The translations under genes were made by a program, and so were the position numbers. From Mesohalobacter halotolerans (GTDB lineage Bacteria > Bacteroidota > Bacteroidia > Flavobacteriales > Flavobacteriaceae), in assembly GCF_006120725.1 (NCBI RefSeq), contig NZ_SWMU01000002.1, positions 186,001 to 250,000 of the forward strand: 64,000 nt of DNA, written 5' to 3'. Below are positions 89 through 9,405 of this stretch, in pieces (the first letter of the stretch is position 1; every line of letters begins with the position of its first letter). The notes under the pieces are model-generated. The model ran no database searches. It worked only from the letters and a program-made list of their open reading frames with translations, and was not told where the DNA came from.

Positions 89-163
89 CGGGATGTAGCT
101 TAGTCCGGTTAAAGTGCGCGTCTGGGGGGCGCGAGATCGGAGGTTCGAATCCTCTCATCCCGA
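89..163 (+). tRNA. tRNA-Pro (anticodon GGG)
   Basis: A full cloverleaf can be drawn. The acceptor stem pairs CGGGATG with CATCCCG and leaves discriminator A. The anticodon stem pairs CGCGT with GCGCG around the loop CTGGGGG, which puts GGG at positions 34-36 after U33. The T arm contains GGTTCGAATCC. G37 is usual for proline tRNAs. No 3' CCA is encoded. Two damaged copies of its 3' end follow directly downstream. Confidence 0.93.
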
Positions 164-173
164 CTTTTTTTTC

Positions 174-266
174 AGATCGGAGGTTCTCCCGACACTTCGG
201 GACGCTCATCCCGACTTTTTCTTTTAGATCGGAGGTTCTCCCGACACTTCGGGACGCTCATCCCGA
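174..266 (+). repeat. Two tandem tRNA-Pro 3'-end fragments carrying a palindrome
   Basis: Copies at 174-215 and 226-266 each begin with agatcggaggttc, identical to the variable/T-arm side of the tRNA-Pro just upstream. Each ends with tcatcccga, identical to the last bases of that tRNA. Between these parts, 8 bases of the T loop and stem are replaced by a 19-base insert built on TCCCGA-CACT-TCGGGA. T-rich spacers separate the copies. They cannot fold as tRNAs because the 5' half is missing. The layout resembles the repeats beside tRNA-Arg(ACG) at 7072-7554. Confidence 0.85.
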
Positions 267-5696: not shown

Positions 5697-6004
5697 AATT
5701 TACTTTAATAAAAATACAAATACTTGCTTAACTTCAATATTTATTTCATTTAAACCGTAGCTTGGTTTTTTGAAATGGAATAAGGCTGTAAATCCTTGTA
5801 TAAAATTAATCCTACAATTTATTTATTATTTTATTTCTATTTATTCAAATTAGACAACATTATTTAGGGATACATTTAAATTTTAACAATTAATGAGGAA
5901 AAACCTCAACCAACTTTAATTTATATTTTTGATATTTGGTTTATATATGTATTGATTTATAATATTCAATAAAAAAACATAAATACTAACCAAAACCAAA
6001 AGTT
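5697..6004. other. Intergenic AT-rich stretch, nothing recognised
   Basis: About 300 bases of very AT-rich DNA with scattered stops in all frames. I see no gene, tRNA or clear terminator. Confidence 0.5.
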
Positions 6005-6384
6005 ATGTTATACCCTAAAAGAAAACTAGCGCATAGGACACGCGTTACATCGCAAACCATTGCAAATAGCAGATATGTTACGATTAAAAATCTAAAATTT
6101 TTGTTCTTTTTTTTAATTCTCACGTTTTCATCGTGTAAAGTGAATAACGTTGAATTGGTCAAAAATATGAATTGAAATATAAAATTGTATATCCGCAAAT
6201 AGACCAAACAATTGAAACTTAAATGATCATGCAAAACCTACCGGGTGTTGCTGGCATCTTGGAGTCAAGTACCGATCAAGAAAAACACCGTACCTATAAC
6301 GACTTTTGTACTATGATGGACTTCCACGACAGTTTTAGTAATTCAGGTTACGAATTGCTAGACTGGGAGCGAATTGCACGATAA
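6005..6384 (+). pseudogene. Decayed lipoprotein-like ORF
   Basis: A first frame (6005-6175) contains a membrane/lipobox-like stretch, FLILTFSSC, then stops. The adjoining frame continues as YELKYKIVYPQIDQ, is stopped by TAA 6220-6222, and goes on as MIMQNLPGVAGILESS to GYELLDWERIAR and TAA at 6382-6384. Protein-like composition on both sides of the stop suggests one former gene with a frameshift near 6150-6170 and a nonsense codon. I do not recognise the family. A good terminator lies about 110 bases downstream. Confidence 0.45.
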
Positions 6385-6491
6385 AATCTATCTGCAAAAC
6401 AATGTTAATTCTCTTTTAGCCGATACGATTAACTTTTTCATGTTGATAGTTCATACAAATAAGGGTTAAATATGTTTGTATGAAAGTAGGA

Positions 6492-6526
6492 GCTGCTCTG
6501 ACATTATTGTCAGAGTGGCTTTTTTA
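6492..6526 (+). terminator. Rho-independent terminator
   Basis: The perfect stem CTCTGACA-ttat-TGTCAGAG (6496-6515) is extended by GC pairs and followed by GGCTTTTTTAT. It would end transcription of the decayed ORF upstream. Confidence 0.85.
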
Positions 6527-6603
6527 TCTTGTGCTTACAATAGTTTATGGTTTTAGATTAGGATTTGCGGATTTATAGATCCTGATTGATTTCAATGCTG
6601 GAA

Positions 6604-6627
6604 ACCTGCCCTGCCGATCAGGCGGGT
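6604..6627. repeat. GC-rich hairpin (ACCTGCC/GGCGGGT)
   Basis: ACCTGCC at 6604-6610 pairs with GGCGGGT at 6621-6627 in otherwise AT-rich DNA. The arms resemble those of the hairpins in the repeats at 7072-7165 and 7461-7554 (cctgcc ... gggcggg), so it may be a further member of the same palindromic family. The rest of 6385-6749 holds only the two terminators listed. Confidence 0.5.
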
Positions 6628-6711
6628 ACAAAACCACTGCTACCGCAGTTAATGTATTTACTTAGCCTGATTTACAAAAGTTTCACTTTTGACATTGGTC
6701 TAAATAAATAC

Positions 6712-6740
6712 ACCCTGACAGAGTAGTCAGGGTGGTTTTG
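6712..6740 (-). terminator. Hairpin terminator downstream of tRNA-Arg(ACG)
   Basis: ACCCTGAC at 6712-6719 pairs with GTCAGGGT at 6726-6733. On the minus strand it lies just past the 3' end of tRNA-Arg and is followed by TATTTATTT, so it can end tRNA transcription. Confidence 0.7.
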
Positions 6741-6749
6741 TACTTATTG

Positions 6750-6823
6750 TGACCTCGGCAGGATTCAAACCTGCAACCTTCTGAGCCGTAATCAGATGCG
6801 CTATTCAGTTGCGCCACGAGGCC
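6750..6823 (-). tRNA. tRNA-Arg (anticodon ACG)
   Basis: On the minus strand the acceptor pairs GGCCTCG with CGAGGTC, discriminator A. The D arm reads TGGCGCAACTGAATAGCGCA. The anticodon stem pairs CTGA with TCAG around TTACGGC, giving ACG (inosine-modified in most bacteria, needing TadA). The T loop is GGTTTGAATCC. Its first 24 bases recur, interrupted by hairpins, in the two repeats upstream. Confidence 0.93.
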
Positions 6824-7061
6824 TTATTTTGCTCTTTAGAAATTCTCTTCCAGAGCCTGTTTTAAAATATTTTTCTCTTTCAACTGCCTCTTTTTTAGTG
6901 AAAAATATTTCGCAATATACTAATTCCTAAGGTCTAAAACCTTTTGTTGATTTAGTTTTTCGATTATTATGTTCATTTATTCTTTCTTGTATTATAGTTG
7001 TGAATCCCTTATAAAGACTTCCATCCTTTTTACTTTTAAGAACATAAACATAATATTTCAT
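6824..7061 (-). pseudogene. GIY-YIG nuclease gene with an in-frame amber codon
   Basis: The minus-strand frame begins MKYYVYVLKSKKDGSLYKGF (YVY and YKG stand for the GIY and YIG motifs) and continues ERINEHN to KGFRP. TAG at 6929-6927 falls where the intact neighbour at 7182-7445 has Trp (KPW). The frame then continues ELVYCEIFFTKKEAVEREKY, with the conserved Glu of the EKY segment, to GREFLKSK. After that it reads on into the 5' end of tRNA-Arg and stops only inside it (6803-6801). The product would lack the C-terminal half with the catalytic Glu. It is clearly homologous to, but strongly diverged from, the intact copy next door. Confidence 0.8.
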
Positions 7062-7071
7062 AACTCTTATA

Positions 7072-7165
7072 CGCCCTGCCAGAACGTGCCTAACGTCAGT
7101 TCGGCTCGGGCGGGTATTCAGTTGCGCCCACCTGAATGTAATTCATTCGGGCAAGCCACGAGGCC
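7072..7165 (-). repeat. 94-bp repeat R1: tRNA-Arg 5' fragment with two hairpins
   Basis: It is identical to R2 (7461-7554) at 91 of 94 positions. On the minus strand it opens with GGCCTCGTGG, the first ten bases of tRNA-Arg(ACG). A hairpin follows with arms GCCCGAATG/CATTCAGGT. Then comes GGCGCAACTGAATA, the next tRNA bases, and a second larger hairpin with GGGC-rich arms. It lies between the two GIY-YIG genes. Confidence 0.88.
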
Positions 7166-7181
7166 TTATTTTTTTGATATC

Positions 7182-7445
7182 TTAATTAACTTTATCATCG
7201 ATATCAATTTTGATATTTTGCTTTCTCCACCTTCGTCCAGCTGAAGACTTCAGATATTTTTCTCTTTTTCTTGCTTCTTTACGAGTATTTAAAACTTCAA
7301 AATGAGCTATAATCCAAGGTTTGTAGGCTTTAGTAGAAATCATTTTACCTGAGTTGTGTTCAGACAAACGTCTTTCTATATCTACTGTCATCCCTACATA
7401 ATATCTATCAAACTTTTTACTATAAAGAACGTATACGTAAAACAT
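7182..7445 (-). CDS. GIY-YIG nuclease domain protein
   Basis: A complete small single-domain GIY-YIG protein of 87 residues. The GIY motif is YVY in MFYVYVLYSKK, and the YIG motif is YVG in RYYVGMT. The conserved Arg of the ERRLSEHN helix and the Glu in KREKYLK are both present. The tail is basic (AGRRWRKQN). The family (UPF0213-like) is widespread and usually of unknown role; nuclease activity is inferred. It is bracketed by two 94-bp repeats made from the 5' end of tRNA-Arg, and a second, amber-interrupted homologue lies beyond R1. This context looks like a small mobile or tRNA-targeting unit rather than a housekeeping gene. Confidence 0.88.
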   Translation of the reverse strand: MFYVYVLYSKKFDRYYVGMTVDIERRLSEHNSGKMISTKAYKPWIIAHFEVLNTRKEARKREKYLKSSAGRRWRKQNIKIDIDDKVN

Positions 7446-7460
7446 AACCTTTATTTTATG

Positions 7461-7554
7461 CGCCCTGCCCGAAAGTGCCTAACGTCAGTTCGGCTCGGGC
7501 GGGTATTCAGTTGCGCCCGCCTGAATGTAATTCATTCGGGCAAGCCACGAGGCC
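7461..7554 (-). repeat. 94-bp repeat R2: tRNA-Arg 5' fragment with two hairpins
   Basis: Same structure as R1 (three mismatches). Its outer hairpin is perfect apart from a G-T pair (CCTGCCCGA against TCGGGCGGG). The inner hairpin arms are GCCTGAATG and CATTCGGGC. The tRNA-derived parts are tattcagttgcgcc and ccacgaggcc on the plus strand, with the insert exactly between them. Confidence 0.88.
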
Positions 7555-7609
7555 TTTTTGGGGTTGCAAATATATTTCTTTTATACCTTATCACAAAATT
7601 TAGAGAAAT

Positions 7610-8380
7610 TTATATTCGATTCATTTTGAAAAGTTGTGCCTTTTCATCAAACTTAATTAAATCTTGAGGGAAAAGTTCGTGTAAAATACCACTATGAATT
7701 AAATTTTGTGGTGTATCATGTATCACTTGTTTATCTTTTATAAGGATGATAGAATCACAAAGCTGTAAGGCTAAATTGATCTCATGTGTAGCAAAAATCA
7801 CAGACTTATCGTGGTTAGTGCTGATGCTTTTTAATAAATTTAATACCATGGCTTTATGGTACATGTCTAAGTGTGAAGTCGGCTCATCTAGTAATATCAA
7901 TGGTGTATTTTGAGCAATAGCTCTAGCAATAAGTACTTTTTGAAGTTGCCCGTCGCTTAACCTCGAACACGCTTTATCTTTTGCCTCGTACATTTTTACT
8001 TGCTTTAGGGCTTTTATGATGTGGTTTTTATCTTGATACTCATGTATCCCTATCCAATTGGTATAAGGTTGTCGACCCAAGGCAACGAAATCAATCACTT
8101 TCAAATGCTGTGGAAGGCGCTGTTTGGTTAGTACCAAGCTTATTTTTTGAGCAATTTCCTTCACAGTATATGTGTTCAAAGGACGATTGTACAATTTGAT
8201 GTCTCCTTGAAGTGGATTTATAAGTCCTGATAAACTTTTAATTAAGGTAGATTTACCGGAACCGTTCACACCTATAACAGCAGTTAAGCCAGCATTTTTA
8301 ATGCTTATATTAATACCACTGGCCACTTCTACTTTTGGCTTGTTGTATCCTACACTCAACTGTTTTGTTTCTAATCGCAT
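7610..8380 (-). CDS. btuD: ABC transporter ATPase, BtuD/FecE type
   Basis: The 256-residue ATP-binding subunit of a class II (cobalamin/siderophore type) importer. Walker A is GVNGSGKST at about residue 37, the signature is RLSDGQLQK (variant of LSGGQ), and Walker B is LILLDEPTSHLD. The switch His lies in FATHEIN. It is last in the minus-strand order binding protein, permease, ATPase, two bases behind the permease. B12 as the substrate is inferred, because this gene trio usually accompanies riboswitch-controlled BtuB receptors in Flavobacteriia, like the one at 24.2 kb. A siderophore or haem substrate cannot be excluded from this gene alone. Confidence 0.82.
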   Translation of the reverse strand: MRLETKQLSVGYNKPKVEVASGINISIKNAGLTAVIGVNGSGKSTLIKSLSGLINPLQGDIKLYNRPLNTYTVKEIAQKISLVLTKQRLPQHLKVIDFVALGRQPYTNWIGIHEYQDKNHIIKALKQVKMYEAKDKACSRLSDGQLQKVLIARAIAQNTPLILLDEPTSHLDMYHKAMVLNLLKSISTNHDKSVIFATHEINLALQLCDSIILIKDKQVIHDTPQNLIHSGILHELFPQDLIKFDEKAQLFKMNRI

Positions 8381-8382
8381 GC

Positions 8383-9405
8383 TTAAAAGTTAAGTTGTCT
8401 TGAACGGAGAATAAGCCATATCACAATTGGTGCTCCAAAGAGTGAAGTGACAGCATTTATAGGTAAAGTATAATCAACACCGGGCAATTGCGAAATACTA
8501 TCGCAAATCAGCATCACCACAGCGCCACCCATACAAACCGTAGGTAACAGAATGAGATGCTTGTTTGTTTTTAAAATTAGACGCATAAGATGAGGTATAG
8601 CCAATCCAACAAACGCTATTGGACCAGCAAAGGCCGTAATACTTCCGGTTAAAACACATGTCGCAATAATTGTCATAAAACGCAACAACTTGATGTGAAC
8701 CCCTAAACTTTTAGCATAAGACTCACCGATAAGTAGGGCGTCTAAAGGTTTAATGAGAAACAAACAAAGAATTAAGCCTAAAAACCAAAACACCCCTAAA
8801 ATGGAAACTTCACTCCAGGATAAATCCCCCAAACTACCTAAAGACCAAAACACAAATTGTTGCAGTTCATCTGAAGCACTAAAGTAGGAGAGAAGGTTGA
8901 CTACTGCACCAGTAAGACTCGCAAACATTAACCCGATGATTAACAACGCCATACTGTCTTTTATCTTTACGGAGGTAATAAGCACTGCGCCCATAACCAT
9001 CAGGCTACCAAGACTAGAGGCGAGAATGACAGCTGTTTTGGAAAACCACAAGTAGTTTGTAAAACTTAATCCTAAAATCCCACTACCCATGAGTAGCAAA
9101 GCTACACCAAGACTTGCACCGCTGCTCAGTCCTAATACATATGGTCCGGCCAAGGGGTTTCTAAAAAAAGTTTGCATCAATAATCCACTGACTCCTAAAC
9201 CTGAACCCACAATAATGGCCGTCATAGCTTTCGGAAGTCTGTAGTCGAGGATAATGTACGTCCAAGTATCGACTGAACTTTCTCCTGTGAATATCACTCG
9301 TGTGATGTCTTGTAAAGGAATAGAAACTGAACCCAAACTGATATTTAACAGTAAGACCAAAATTAGGATCAAAATGCTTATTAAGCTAAGTTTAAGCGTT
9401 TTCAC
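8383..9405 (-). CDS. btuC: FecCD/BtuC-family ABC permease
   Basis: A hydrophobic protein of 340 residues with about ten membrane helices, the normal length for FecCD permeases. Typical segments are LPKAMTAIIVGSGLGVSG near residue 60, the RNPLAGPYVLGLSSGASLG region (the BtuC/FhuB signature), and FVGLAIPHLMRLI near 265, the cytoplasmic coupling loop. It would form a homodimeric channel in the inner membrane. Its start overlaps the stop of the binding-protein gene by one base, so the two are probably translated together. Confidence 0.88.
   Translation of the reverse strand: MKTLKLSLISILILILVLLLNISLGSVSIPLQDITRVIFTGESSVDTWTYIILDYRLPKAMTAIIVGSGLGVSGLLMQTFFRNPLAGPYVLGLSSGASLGVALLLMGSGILGLSFTNYLWFSKTAVILASSLGSLMVMGAVLITSVKIKDSMALLIIGLMFASLTGAVVNLLSYFSASDELQQFVFWSLGSLGDLSWSEVSILGVFWFLGLILCLFLIKPLDALLIGESYAKSLGVHIKLLRFMTIIATCVLTGSITAFAGPIAFVGLAIPHLMRLILKTNKHLILLPTVCMGGAVVMLICDSISQLPGVDYTLPINAVTSLFGAPIVIWLILRSRQLNF

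Follow-up and report, generated by a model that had tools for sequence, protein, structure and literature searches.

SegB of phages T4 and T6 is a GIY-YIG enzyme with cut sites inside tRNA genes; tandem amplification depends on it and does not occur in a catalytic SegB mutant, and the SegB motif is RAWTSGAAC (PMC13096335). A different arrangement has been described for the mORF gene hybrids of fungal mitochondria (Allomyces atp6; Glomus atp6, atp9, cox2 and nad3), in which the insert carries an endonuclease ORF (GIY-YIG in Glomus atp9) together with a replacement gene end, and the native end is displaced beyond the insert (PMC3630166). ICEs and prophages that integrate into tRNA genes likewise leave an intact tRNA and, at the other end of the inserted DNA, a partial copy (PMC9897764). 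Minimal standalone prokaryotic GIY-YIG proteins were treated as Slx1-like in a 2006 survey (PMC1564403).

The locus analyzed here combines elements of these systems. In the window (the whole stretch of 64,000 nucleotides under study, from Mesohalobacter halotolerans), an array at tRNA-Arg(ACG) is probably a tandem pair of minimal tRNA-targeted homing elements, which would spread by cut-and-repair and leave scarred, displaced tRNA ends. The likeness to SegB, which lies in a tRNA cluster, is that of a free-standing GIY-YIG enzyme next to tRNA genes (PMC13096335, PMC2988022) and in recombination that amplifies enzyme and tRNA in tandem (PMC13096335). However, SegB resides in phage and cuts several tRNA genes, whereas the units here are chromosomal and their lineages are tied to one tRNA; furthermore, the accessible part of the SegB report describes neither a replacement tRNA end nor a displaced, hairpin-scarred one (PMC13096335). 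The mORF hybrids follow the same plan of gene-end replacement, and in the window, too, the insert supplies a replacement end and the native end is displaced; yet they concern mitochondrial protein genes, their replacement end is held to be foreign in several cases, and the text available to us describes no hairpin scar in their displaced end (PMC3630166). In the window, the replacement end is not diverged from the native one. In contrast to the kilobases integrated by ICEs and prophages (PMC9897764), the insert here fits a single small gene and hairpins into about 390 bp.

Free-standing GIY-YIG homing enzymes, fungal mitochondrial gene-end replacement and partial tRNAs at integration sites are known already. 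Our search of the full-text literature, mainly open-access papers, with most subscription papers and all bioRxiv preprints aside, found no description of such units in bacteria. An earlier, sequence-only reading of this locus knew of no system of exactly this plan. What is new, as far as this literature goes, is the union of these parts in bacterial chromosomes, the hairpin-scarred displaced tRNA ends and the tRNA-bound nuclease lineages.

The genome containing the window comprises 2.65 Mb in 11 contigs. On the minus strand, from 7574 to 6749, the array reads as a promoter-like box, a repeat (R2), an intact GIY-YIG gene, a second repeat (R1), a TAG-interrupted GIY-YIG frame and an intact tRNA-Arg(ACG). 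Apart from the box, this layout, with its two repeats and its intact and amber-interrupted genes, had been proposed from the letters alone and was confirmed from the sequence and by tRNA and PF01541 searches; the box, the overlap between broken frame and tRNA, and similar scars at other tRNAs of the genome are additions of the present analysis. Its features are as follows (coordinates within the repeats were counted by hand from the sequence):

7567 to 7574, minus strand: promoter-like TATATTTG box, which we take to be of the Bacteroidota-type -7 kind (from sequence; similar boxes precede the tRNA in empty sites)
7456 to 7559, minus strand: R2, displaced tRNA 5' piece (direct repeat, folding), with tRNA nt 1-11 at 7544-7554, hairpin 1 at 7515-7543, tRNA nt 12-22 at 7504-7514, hairpin 2 at 7464-7503 and tRNA nt 23-28 at 7458-7463
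7182 to 7445, minus strand: intact GIY-YIG gene, B-type, 87 aa (PF01541 with 61.1 bits against a cut-off of 22.6; relatives beside tRNA-Arg)
7067 to 7170, minus strand: R1, second displaced tRNA 5' piece (direct repeat, folding), with tRNA nt 1-11 at 7155-7165, hairpin 1 at 7126-7154, tRNA nt 12-22 at 7115-7125, hairpin 2 at 7075-7114 and tRNA nt 23-28 (GCGTAT) at 7069-7074
6801 to 7061, minus strand: interrupted A-type GIY-YIG frame, with TAG at 6927-6929 as codon 45
6749 to 6823, minus strand: intact tRNA-Arg(ACG) (ARAGORN; Rfam RF00005 with 59.6 bits at 6750-6823)

R1 and R2 form a direct repeat of 104 nt with 95% identity and a spacing of 389 bp. The sequence-only reading had given them 94 bp and three differences, a count that holds within the approximately 94 nt starting at the tRNA piece, but the full repeat differs at 5 of 104 positions. 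Each repeat does start with the tRNA 5' end broken by hairpins, as had been claimed, but contains 28 tRNA nucleotides rather than the first 24: nt 1-11, 12-22 and 23-28, separated by inserts of 29 and 40 nt in that order. The inserts, located at nt 11/12 and at nt 22/23 (in the D-loop), fold as hairpins, and the displaced pieces match the tRNA over nt 1-28 save for one R1 base (GCGTAT for GCGCAT). Single-strand folding of the two repeat stretches gave z-scores of -3.2 and -3.1; of 200 shuffles, 0 and 2, respectively, were as stable. Chance resemblance was rejected on the repeat, folding, tRNA proximity and tree results. A group I intron or other known RNA was also rejected, as the only Rfam match at gathering score in 5800-8800 is the tRNA, and the tRNA is whole.

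The TATATTTG box is likely the native tRNA promoter. It is found 5' of R2 only, with none 5' of R1 or of tRNA-Arg(ACG), and we therefore take R2 as the original start of the gene and the tRNA's own 5' end as the replacement. An A-type gene follows R1 and a B-type gene follows R2. The hairpins of R1 match those of R2 (B-type), and the bases after R1 (GCGTATAAGAG) match the A-type leader of the related genome G013 (GCGCATAAGAG). R1, with B-type hairpins that continue into an A-type leader, thus seems to be chimeric; the joint, at tRNA nt 23-28, looks as expected from recombination between tRNA-derived stretches. This supports the earlier proposal that the repeats were copied or homogenized separately from the genes. 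The window array would consist of a B-type unit outside an A-type unit with a decayed gene, the displaced piece of the A unit having been overwritten by that of the B unit.

The interrupted frame contains a single internal stop; its first 44 codons match PF01541 with 34.2 bits, and its last codons lie inside the tRNA (...SKIRPRGATE, then TAG). The intact window gene shares 50% identity over 78 aa with the intact gene of G013, which resembles the broken frame. Frames within the 389-bp unit reach at most 103 aa. The nuclease has a weak PHROG match annotated as homing endonuclease (E 0.00015), and B-type proteins appear constrained, with a median pN/pS of 0.29 and a maximum of 0.38 (11 genes, 55 pairs, stop codons skipped), a ratio that is rough because pS is near saturation (0.70). 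As in free-standing homing endonuclease elements, the homing-type nuclease domain is thus both intact and constrained. UPF0213 proteins (structures 1ywl and 1zg2; 96 and 107 aa) share the domain and are of similar size, but, unlike the units here, such standalone GIY-YIG proteins are not tied to tRNA genes in the accessible part of the 2006 survey (PMC1564403). A REP/RAYT system (HUH/Y1 transposase with REP palindromes) was rejected at the level of the unit, since the gene of the unit is a GIY-YIG gene and no room is left for a second enzyme.

At tRNA-Arg, the nuclease frame overlaps the tRNA. In 12 distinct units with an intact gene adjoining the tRNA (L190, L191, L192, L195-L200, L018, unit 3 of L194 and unit 2 of L004), the frame ends at tRNA nt 23, in ...GAATAG, so that the stop is supplied by the D-loop; for unit 2 of L004 this follows from coordinates (tRNA start 2031, frame end 2053), and for the other 11 it was measured. 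Exceptions are L201, with a frame that stops 4 nt before the tRNA, and L193 and the window, where the tRNA-adjacent frame is broken. The displaced pieces of the window, L004, L018, L193, L194, L195 and L199 carry a hairpin at the nt 22/23 junction; the hairpin of L190-L192 and L196-L198 replaces nt 10-22 and ends at the same point, and that of L200 and L201 is located elsewhere in the D-arm. The hairpin removes the D-loop stop from the displaced piece, and the frame of unit 1 of L004 runs on through the palindrome. Among 11 aligned pieces, two of them from the window and with L198, L200 and L201 left out, the 5' arm of the hairpin (CCCGCCCG) never varies and the 3' arm hardly does, in two length forms. 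The core of hairpin 2, GTTAGGC, invited an attC-like reading, which was rejected: in these pieces the core is restricted to the two from the window and L199, L193-L195 have GTTAGTC, and the core is absent from five.

To compare occupied and empty sites, 60 related genomes were searched and the junctions at tRNA-Arg(ACG) were read. Units are present in three genomes of the genus: two in that of the window, one in G013 and three in G012. The single G013 unit, with a plain palindrome, CCTGCCTGCCGGCAGGCAGG, in the D-loop, adjoins the same neighbor gene as in the window (82% identical; presumably an ABC-transporter ATPase), and the three G012 units adjoin another neighbor. In 14 genus genomes the site is empty (G003, G004, G005, G008, G009, G011, G015, G018, G019, G020, G021, G022, G024 and G025): a TATATTTG box is followed approximately 12 to 45 nt on by the tRNA, with no unit between. 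The site is also empty in G010, beside the neighbor gene of the window (71% identical). This count covers genomes with such a box at the tRNA and leaves out G014 and G017, where it is lacking; G006, G007 and G016 gave no match for the site, and the remaining genus genomes lie outside the count. The insertion site is thus fixed, with occupied and empty alleles in close relatives, and tRNA-Phe provides a second such site. The comparison supports the earlier suggestion of a minimal element, a small nuclease plus a tRNA end, that inserts at the tRNA, but the plan is broader than was thought, with a mirrored 3' form, many tRNAs and gene-less copies. In P. longus (G001), a B-type unit is found at tRNA-Arg(TCG), while tRNA-Arg(ACG), 97% identical to that of the window, looks empty by match coordinates only; recognition would have to extend past the 5' end that both tRNAs share, which counts against a simple version of homing. 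Tandem units can be nearly identical, as in L004. One large genome-wide REP family was ruled out by the occurrence of CCTGCCTGCCGGCAGGCAGG at just 3 places in the window's genome at up to one mismatch, two of them in the tRNA-Arg(TCG) array.

Two forms of the unit can be distinguished. In one, the 5' form (Arg, Cys, Leu), it is the 5' part of the tRNA that has been displaced, and the unit sits upstream of the tRNA. The other, the 3' form, is seen at Asn, Phe, Ala, Asp, Met, Ser, Arg(TCT) and one Leu and runs from a promoter-like box through the intact tRNA, a terminator-like stretch and the gene to the displaced 3' part, with promoter and terminator read by eye. In both, a tRNA loop is broken or replaced in the displaced piece, and the rebuilt tRNA keeps the target sequence. 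T-loop scars consist of a 16-18 nt hairpin that substitutes for the five bases following GGTTC; at tRNA-Phe (L081), for example, GGTTC(GATTC)C becomes GGTTC(CCCCGAAGCGTCGGGG)C, with similar changes at Cys, Pro and Met. The tRNA-Asn scar lies in the anticodon arm, where it replaces nt 26-35. Scar position mostly tracks tRNA and side, with the exception of Met, scarred in the T-loop (L118) and in the anticodon (L204, L208). An automatic test with a threshold of the best of 60 shuffles plus 3 detected displaced pieces on the same side as the gene for 31 of 60 tRNA-adjacent cases; among the 29 misses, 12 of the 13 at tRNA-Arg have such a piece by eye and several others do not. Because it is too strict for short 5' pieces, we keep this test as a lower bound only.

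The window also contains a gene-less array of the mirrored form:

89 to 164, plus strand: tRNA-Pro(GGG), with a gene-less mirrored scar on its 3' side
174 to 214, plus strand: displaced tRNA-Pro 3' piece 1, with hairpin TCCCGACACTTCGGGA at 187-202 in place of the T-loop
226 to 266, plus strand: displaced tRNA-Pro 3' piece 2, with a hairpin at 239-254

Partial copies within 500 bp, counted if they scored 18 or more and exceeded 200 shuffles, accompany 14 of the 37 tRNA genes of the window's genome. In eleven of these, a loop holds an insert or has been replaced by one: Arg(TCT), Asn, Phe, Ala(TGC), Pro(TGG), Met, Cys, Pro(GGG), Arg(ACG), Arg(TCG) and Tyr, where the Ala(TGC) hairpin is worn and that of Arg(TCG) was seen in a separate reading of its array. 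The other three, at Ile (5' side) and two neighboring tRNA-Glu genes, are doubtful. Further scars, at Lys (two), Ile (3' side) and a second Met, were recognized by eye and missed by the test. At tRNA-Phe, gene-bearing units occur in G015, G008, G020, G004 and G022; the middle of the gene is deleted in G025 (five units in tandem) and in G021 (at a contig end); the genes are worn or cut off in G003, G009, G011 and G019; and G012 has three gene-less copies and G001 and G005 worn remnants. The stretches read of G017 and G000 show no 3' scar at tRNA-Phe, where G000 has a 5' scar.

A genome-wide PF01541 search of the window's genome gave 13 matches; excluding two in long frames, 8 of 11 sit within 600 bp of a tRNA, a zone that covers 1.37% of this genome (37 tRNA genes). 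Extending the survey to 27 genomes of the genus yielded, among the matches listed, 130 small PF01541 matches (frames of at least 238 aa excluded, two added from a genome search), which correspond to 105 loci, as array copies are not independent. Among these listed matches, 48 have a called tRNA within 600 bp, on the same strand in 47 of the 48 cases, and 82 do not. For one of the 48 (L134), the nearest "tRNA" is a displaced piece called by ARAGORN, with the real tRNA just upstream.

Judging from the protein alignments, the phylogeny of the nucleases follows tRNA identity, and lineages are tied to particular tRNAs. On a tree with 132 rows, for the window and each single locus, and 75 columns, with many forks unresolved and two genus loci duplicated, the 60 labeled rows require 16 changes of tRNA identity versus 35.5 after shuffling (0 of 200 as low), a signal that near-copies within the genus boost. 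Arg (6 versus 17.9 changes), Asn (2 versus 7.7), Phe (3 versus 7.6) and Met (1 versus 6.8) all fall below 500 of 500 shuffles, and Leu (1 versus 2.0) was matched by 4 of 500. The clustering of Ser, Ala and Cys is not convincing (44, 17 and 19 of 500 shuffles as low). The Met group also includes loci from other Bacteroidota (L204, L208, L214).

Taken from the sequences, the picture is one of insertion at a tRNA that is preserved, a scarred displaced end, lineage specificity, a constrained protein, and tandem growth with decay. In the homing mechanism that we favor, the nuclease would cut the empty gene, repair would copy the unit, and the hairpin would spoil the recognition site in the displaced end. 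A unit of about 390 bp would consist of a small free-standing GIY-YIG gene and a copy of the tRNA 5' part. Its insertion would leave the native promoter and the old, displaced 5' piece outside and place a fresh 5' end against the tRNA body, so that the essential tRNA would still be made, presumably from a longer transcript trimmed by RNase P. The hairpin sits in a tRNA loop, most likely where the nuclease recognizes the empty gene, and neither junction of an occupied site would therefore be a target. As the rebuilt tRNA equals the target sequence, flanking sequence must be what confers immunity. Mirrored units would lie 3' of the tRNA and displace its 3' part, in which the T-loop, or some of the anticodon arm, is replaced. 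Units would spread into empty tRNA alleles by cut-and-repair copying, and may multiply or lose their gene via recombination between the repeated tRNA pieces. For the cutting step, SegB offers the nearest experimental support, by analogy; its motif reads GTTCSAWTY on the opposite strand and would fit the T-loop replaced in the 3' scars, a reading that is ours and not that of the original report. Several observations count against homing: gene-less displaced pieces, palindromes in stretches that show no tRNA, small GIY-YIG matches with no called tRNA within 600 bp (82 of the 130 listed for the genus and 21 of 28 in a phylum sample), the unconvincing clustering of Ser, Ala and Cys, and tRNA-adjacent genes for which neither the automatic test nor the eye finds a displaced piece.

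Other explanations account for parts of these data. Palindromes of the form TCCCGAN{3,14}TCGGGA occur at 16 places in the window's genome versus 1 for a reversed control; eight are in displaced pieces, one lies directly behind tRNA-Gln and seven are in stretches that show no tRNA. Moreover, CCCCGAAGCGTCGGGG is common to tRNA-Cys and tRNA-Tyr of G000 and tRNA-Phe of G015, and TCCCGACACTTCGGGA to tRNA-Pro of G000 and tRNA-Cys of G024. Such a distribution would suit REP-like mobile palindromes that came first and entered the loops of duplicated, redundant tRNA pieces, with an Slx1-like, structure-specific nuclease acting on palindromes or tRNA-arm cruciforms rather than homing to tRNA sequence; the 2006 survey placed minimal standalone GIY-YIG proteins with Slx1 (PMC1564403), and the window protein would be a candidate member. 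A palindrome-specific enzyme, however, would have no need to track tRNA identity as these lineages do, the same few bases are replaced at T-loops rather than interrupted, and the tRNA-Arg hairpin stem is conserved between genera, which makes this origin rather unlikely. The gene-less arrays at tRNA-Pro (window), tRNA-Asn and tRNA-Phe of G012, and the near-identity that tandem units can show (L004), could also result from passive tandem duplication, by slippage or unequal crossing-over at tRNA arms, with the nuclease genes as passengers near tRNA promoters. We consider this improbable in view of site-bound nuclease lineages, a constrained protein, the same-strand bias (47 of 48 among the matches listed) and tRNA-adjacent relatives in other phyla; the pairing of one nuclease lineage with one tRNA in unrelated hosts, with independent empty alleles, which likewise speaks against passive duplication, is partly shown.

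Gene and tRNA share one strand, and in the 5' form probably one transcript, and the frame overlaps the tRNA, all of which would be compatible with a host regulatory device in which the tRNA transcript is the substrate, processed or regulated by the nuclease or by the hairpin pieces. Such an RNA-level role is very improbable: patchy presence within the genus, decayed copies and variable copy number are unlike a host device, and the characterized GIY-YIG enzymes known to us act on DNA. Finally, the array could be the remnant of an integrase-borne element with the tRNA as attachment site, a partial tRNA copy beside an intact tRNA being a usual mark of integration (PMC9897764). Yet leader and tRNA are contiguous in empty alleles, the accessible text of that source does not mention hairpin scars, and the 389-bp unit, with frames of at most 103 aa, is too short for an integrase gene, so that, judged by size, an integrase in the element was rejected and this origin is scarcely credible.

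Homing, the preferred reading, looks like a strategy by which selfish DNA exploits essential genes and yet leaves them functional; such units would parallel in bacteria the mobile ORFs that replace gene ends in fungal mitochondria, with essential RNA genes as their targets. To our knowledge, small GIY-YIG genes are frequent in Bacteroidota and have no agreed job; homing gives many of them a candidate one. It would also explain scarred partial tRNAs that annotation tools can miscall, and the position and sequence of the hairpin offer a handle on what each nuclease may recognize. A wider generalization, to a class of minimal elements in several phyla that combine a GIY-YIG gene with a tRNA end, keep to one tRNA per lineage, rebuild that tRNA and use the hairpin as a working part, either as immunity mark or as the end of the element, is a possibility that we advance tentatively. 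If it is true, a good share of small Bacteroidota GIY-YIG genes would be such elements and scarred partial tRNAs their fossils.

Distant relatives of the nuclease are found at tRNAs in other phyla, including Patescibacteria. In a phylum sample (61 genomes drawn; 28 new loci, one top match from each of 28 genomes), 7 of the 28 loci have a tRNA within 600 bp, in every case on the same strand, and 21 have none so near. Scanning the B-type alignment against 84,980 species genomes identified 29 loci, of which 22 across all taxa are within 600 bp of a tRNA. All 12 in records titled Flavobacteriaceae or its genera sit at tRNA-Arg (ACG or TCG), with 54-72% identity; two of these (L194 and L195) are G012 and G001, and the ten records not named Psychroflexus carry a displaced piece with a GIY-YIG ORF at tRNA-Arg. 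At 37-53% identity, tRNA-near loci occur in Melioribacter (Ser), Kaiserbacteria (Arg), Roizmanbacteria (Glu; a displaced piece with two hairpins is visible by eye), Microgenomates (Phe) and Paludibacter (Met). The seven loci without a near tRNA include a Flavobacteriia fragment cut by a contig end (L217). A search of 50,697 phage and 72,556 plasmid records with a cut-off of E 1e-5 found no relative, and carriage by phages or plasmids was rejected on this basis. One viral contig carries a relative at 44% identity, and on it a hairpin-bearing piece is called as tRNA-Cys.

Among the small GIY-YIG matches listed in the survey of the window's genus, 82 of 130 have no called tRNA within 600 bp. One tandem array in this genus (locus L079, G012:C34:6991-9748) contains eight GIY-YIG copies at a spacing of about 364 bp, which are separated, among the copies read, by 3' pieces of tRNA-Met. 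No complete tRNA was called anywhere in the fetched 5.3 kb, and the 5' half of the tRNA-Met seems to have been lost or moved. At another locus (L223, G025:C1:2421647-2422750), tRNA-Phe is followed by five repeats of about 165 bp, two of which were read as sequence and the remainder placed by match coordinates, in which the middle of the nuclease gene is deleted. This array is an amplified unit that is unable to make its own enzyme.

At the empty syntenic site of genome G010 (L040, G010:C1:1492103-1492174), the tRNA-Arg(ACG) starts with GTACTCG, whereas the others start with GGCC(T/A)CG. The altered start should weaken the acceptor stem, and is possibly a trace of imprecise unit loss or of a remade 5' end. 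In the window itself, the stretch 3' of tRNA-Arg(ACG) contains the following features:

6223-6384, plus strand: short frame
6586-6726, plus strand: short frame
6626-6637 and 6732-6743: perfect inverted repeat of 12 nt

The window also carries two displaced 3' pieces of tRNA-Pro(GGG) without a gene (174-266), in both of which the T-loop is replaced by the hairpin TCCCGACACTTCGGGA. The same hairpin recurs at a tRNA-Cys in a different species (L163).

On the viral contig IMGVR_UViG_2713897301_000001 (L277), a 3' tRNA piece that contains a hairpin lies downstream of a GIY-YIG gene, and ARAGORN called this piece as tRNA-Cys. Hairpin-scarred pieces such as this one can be miscalled as tRNAs.
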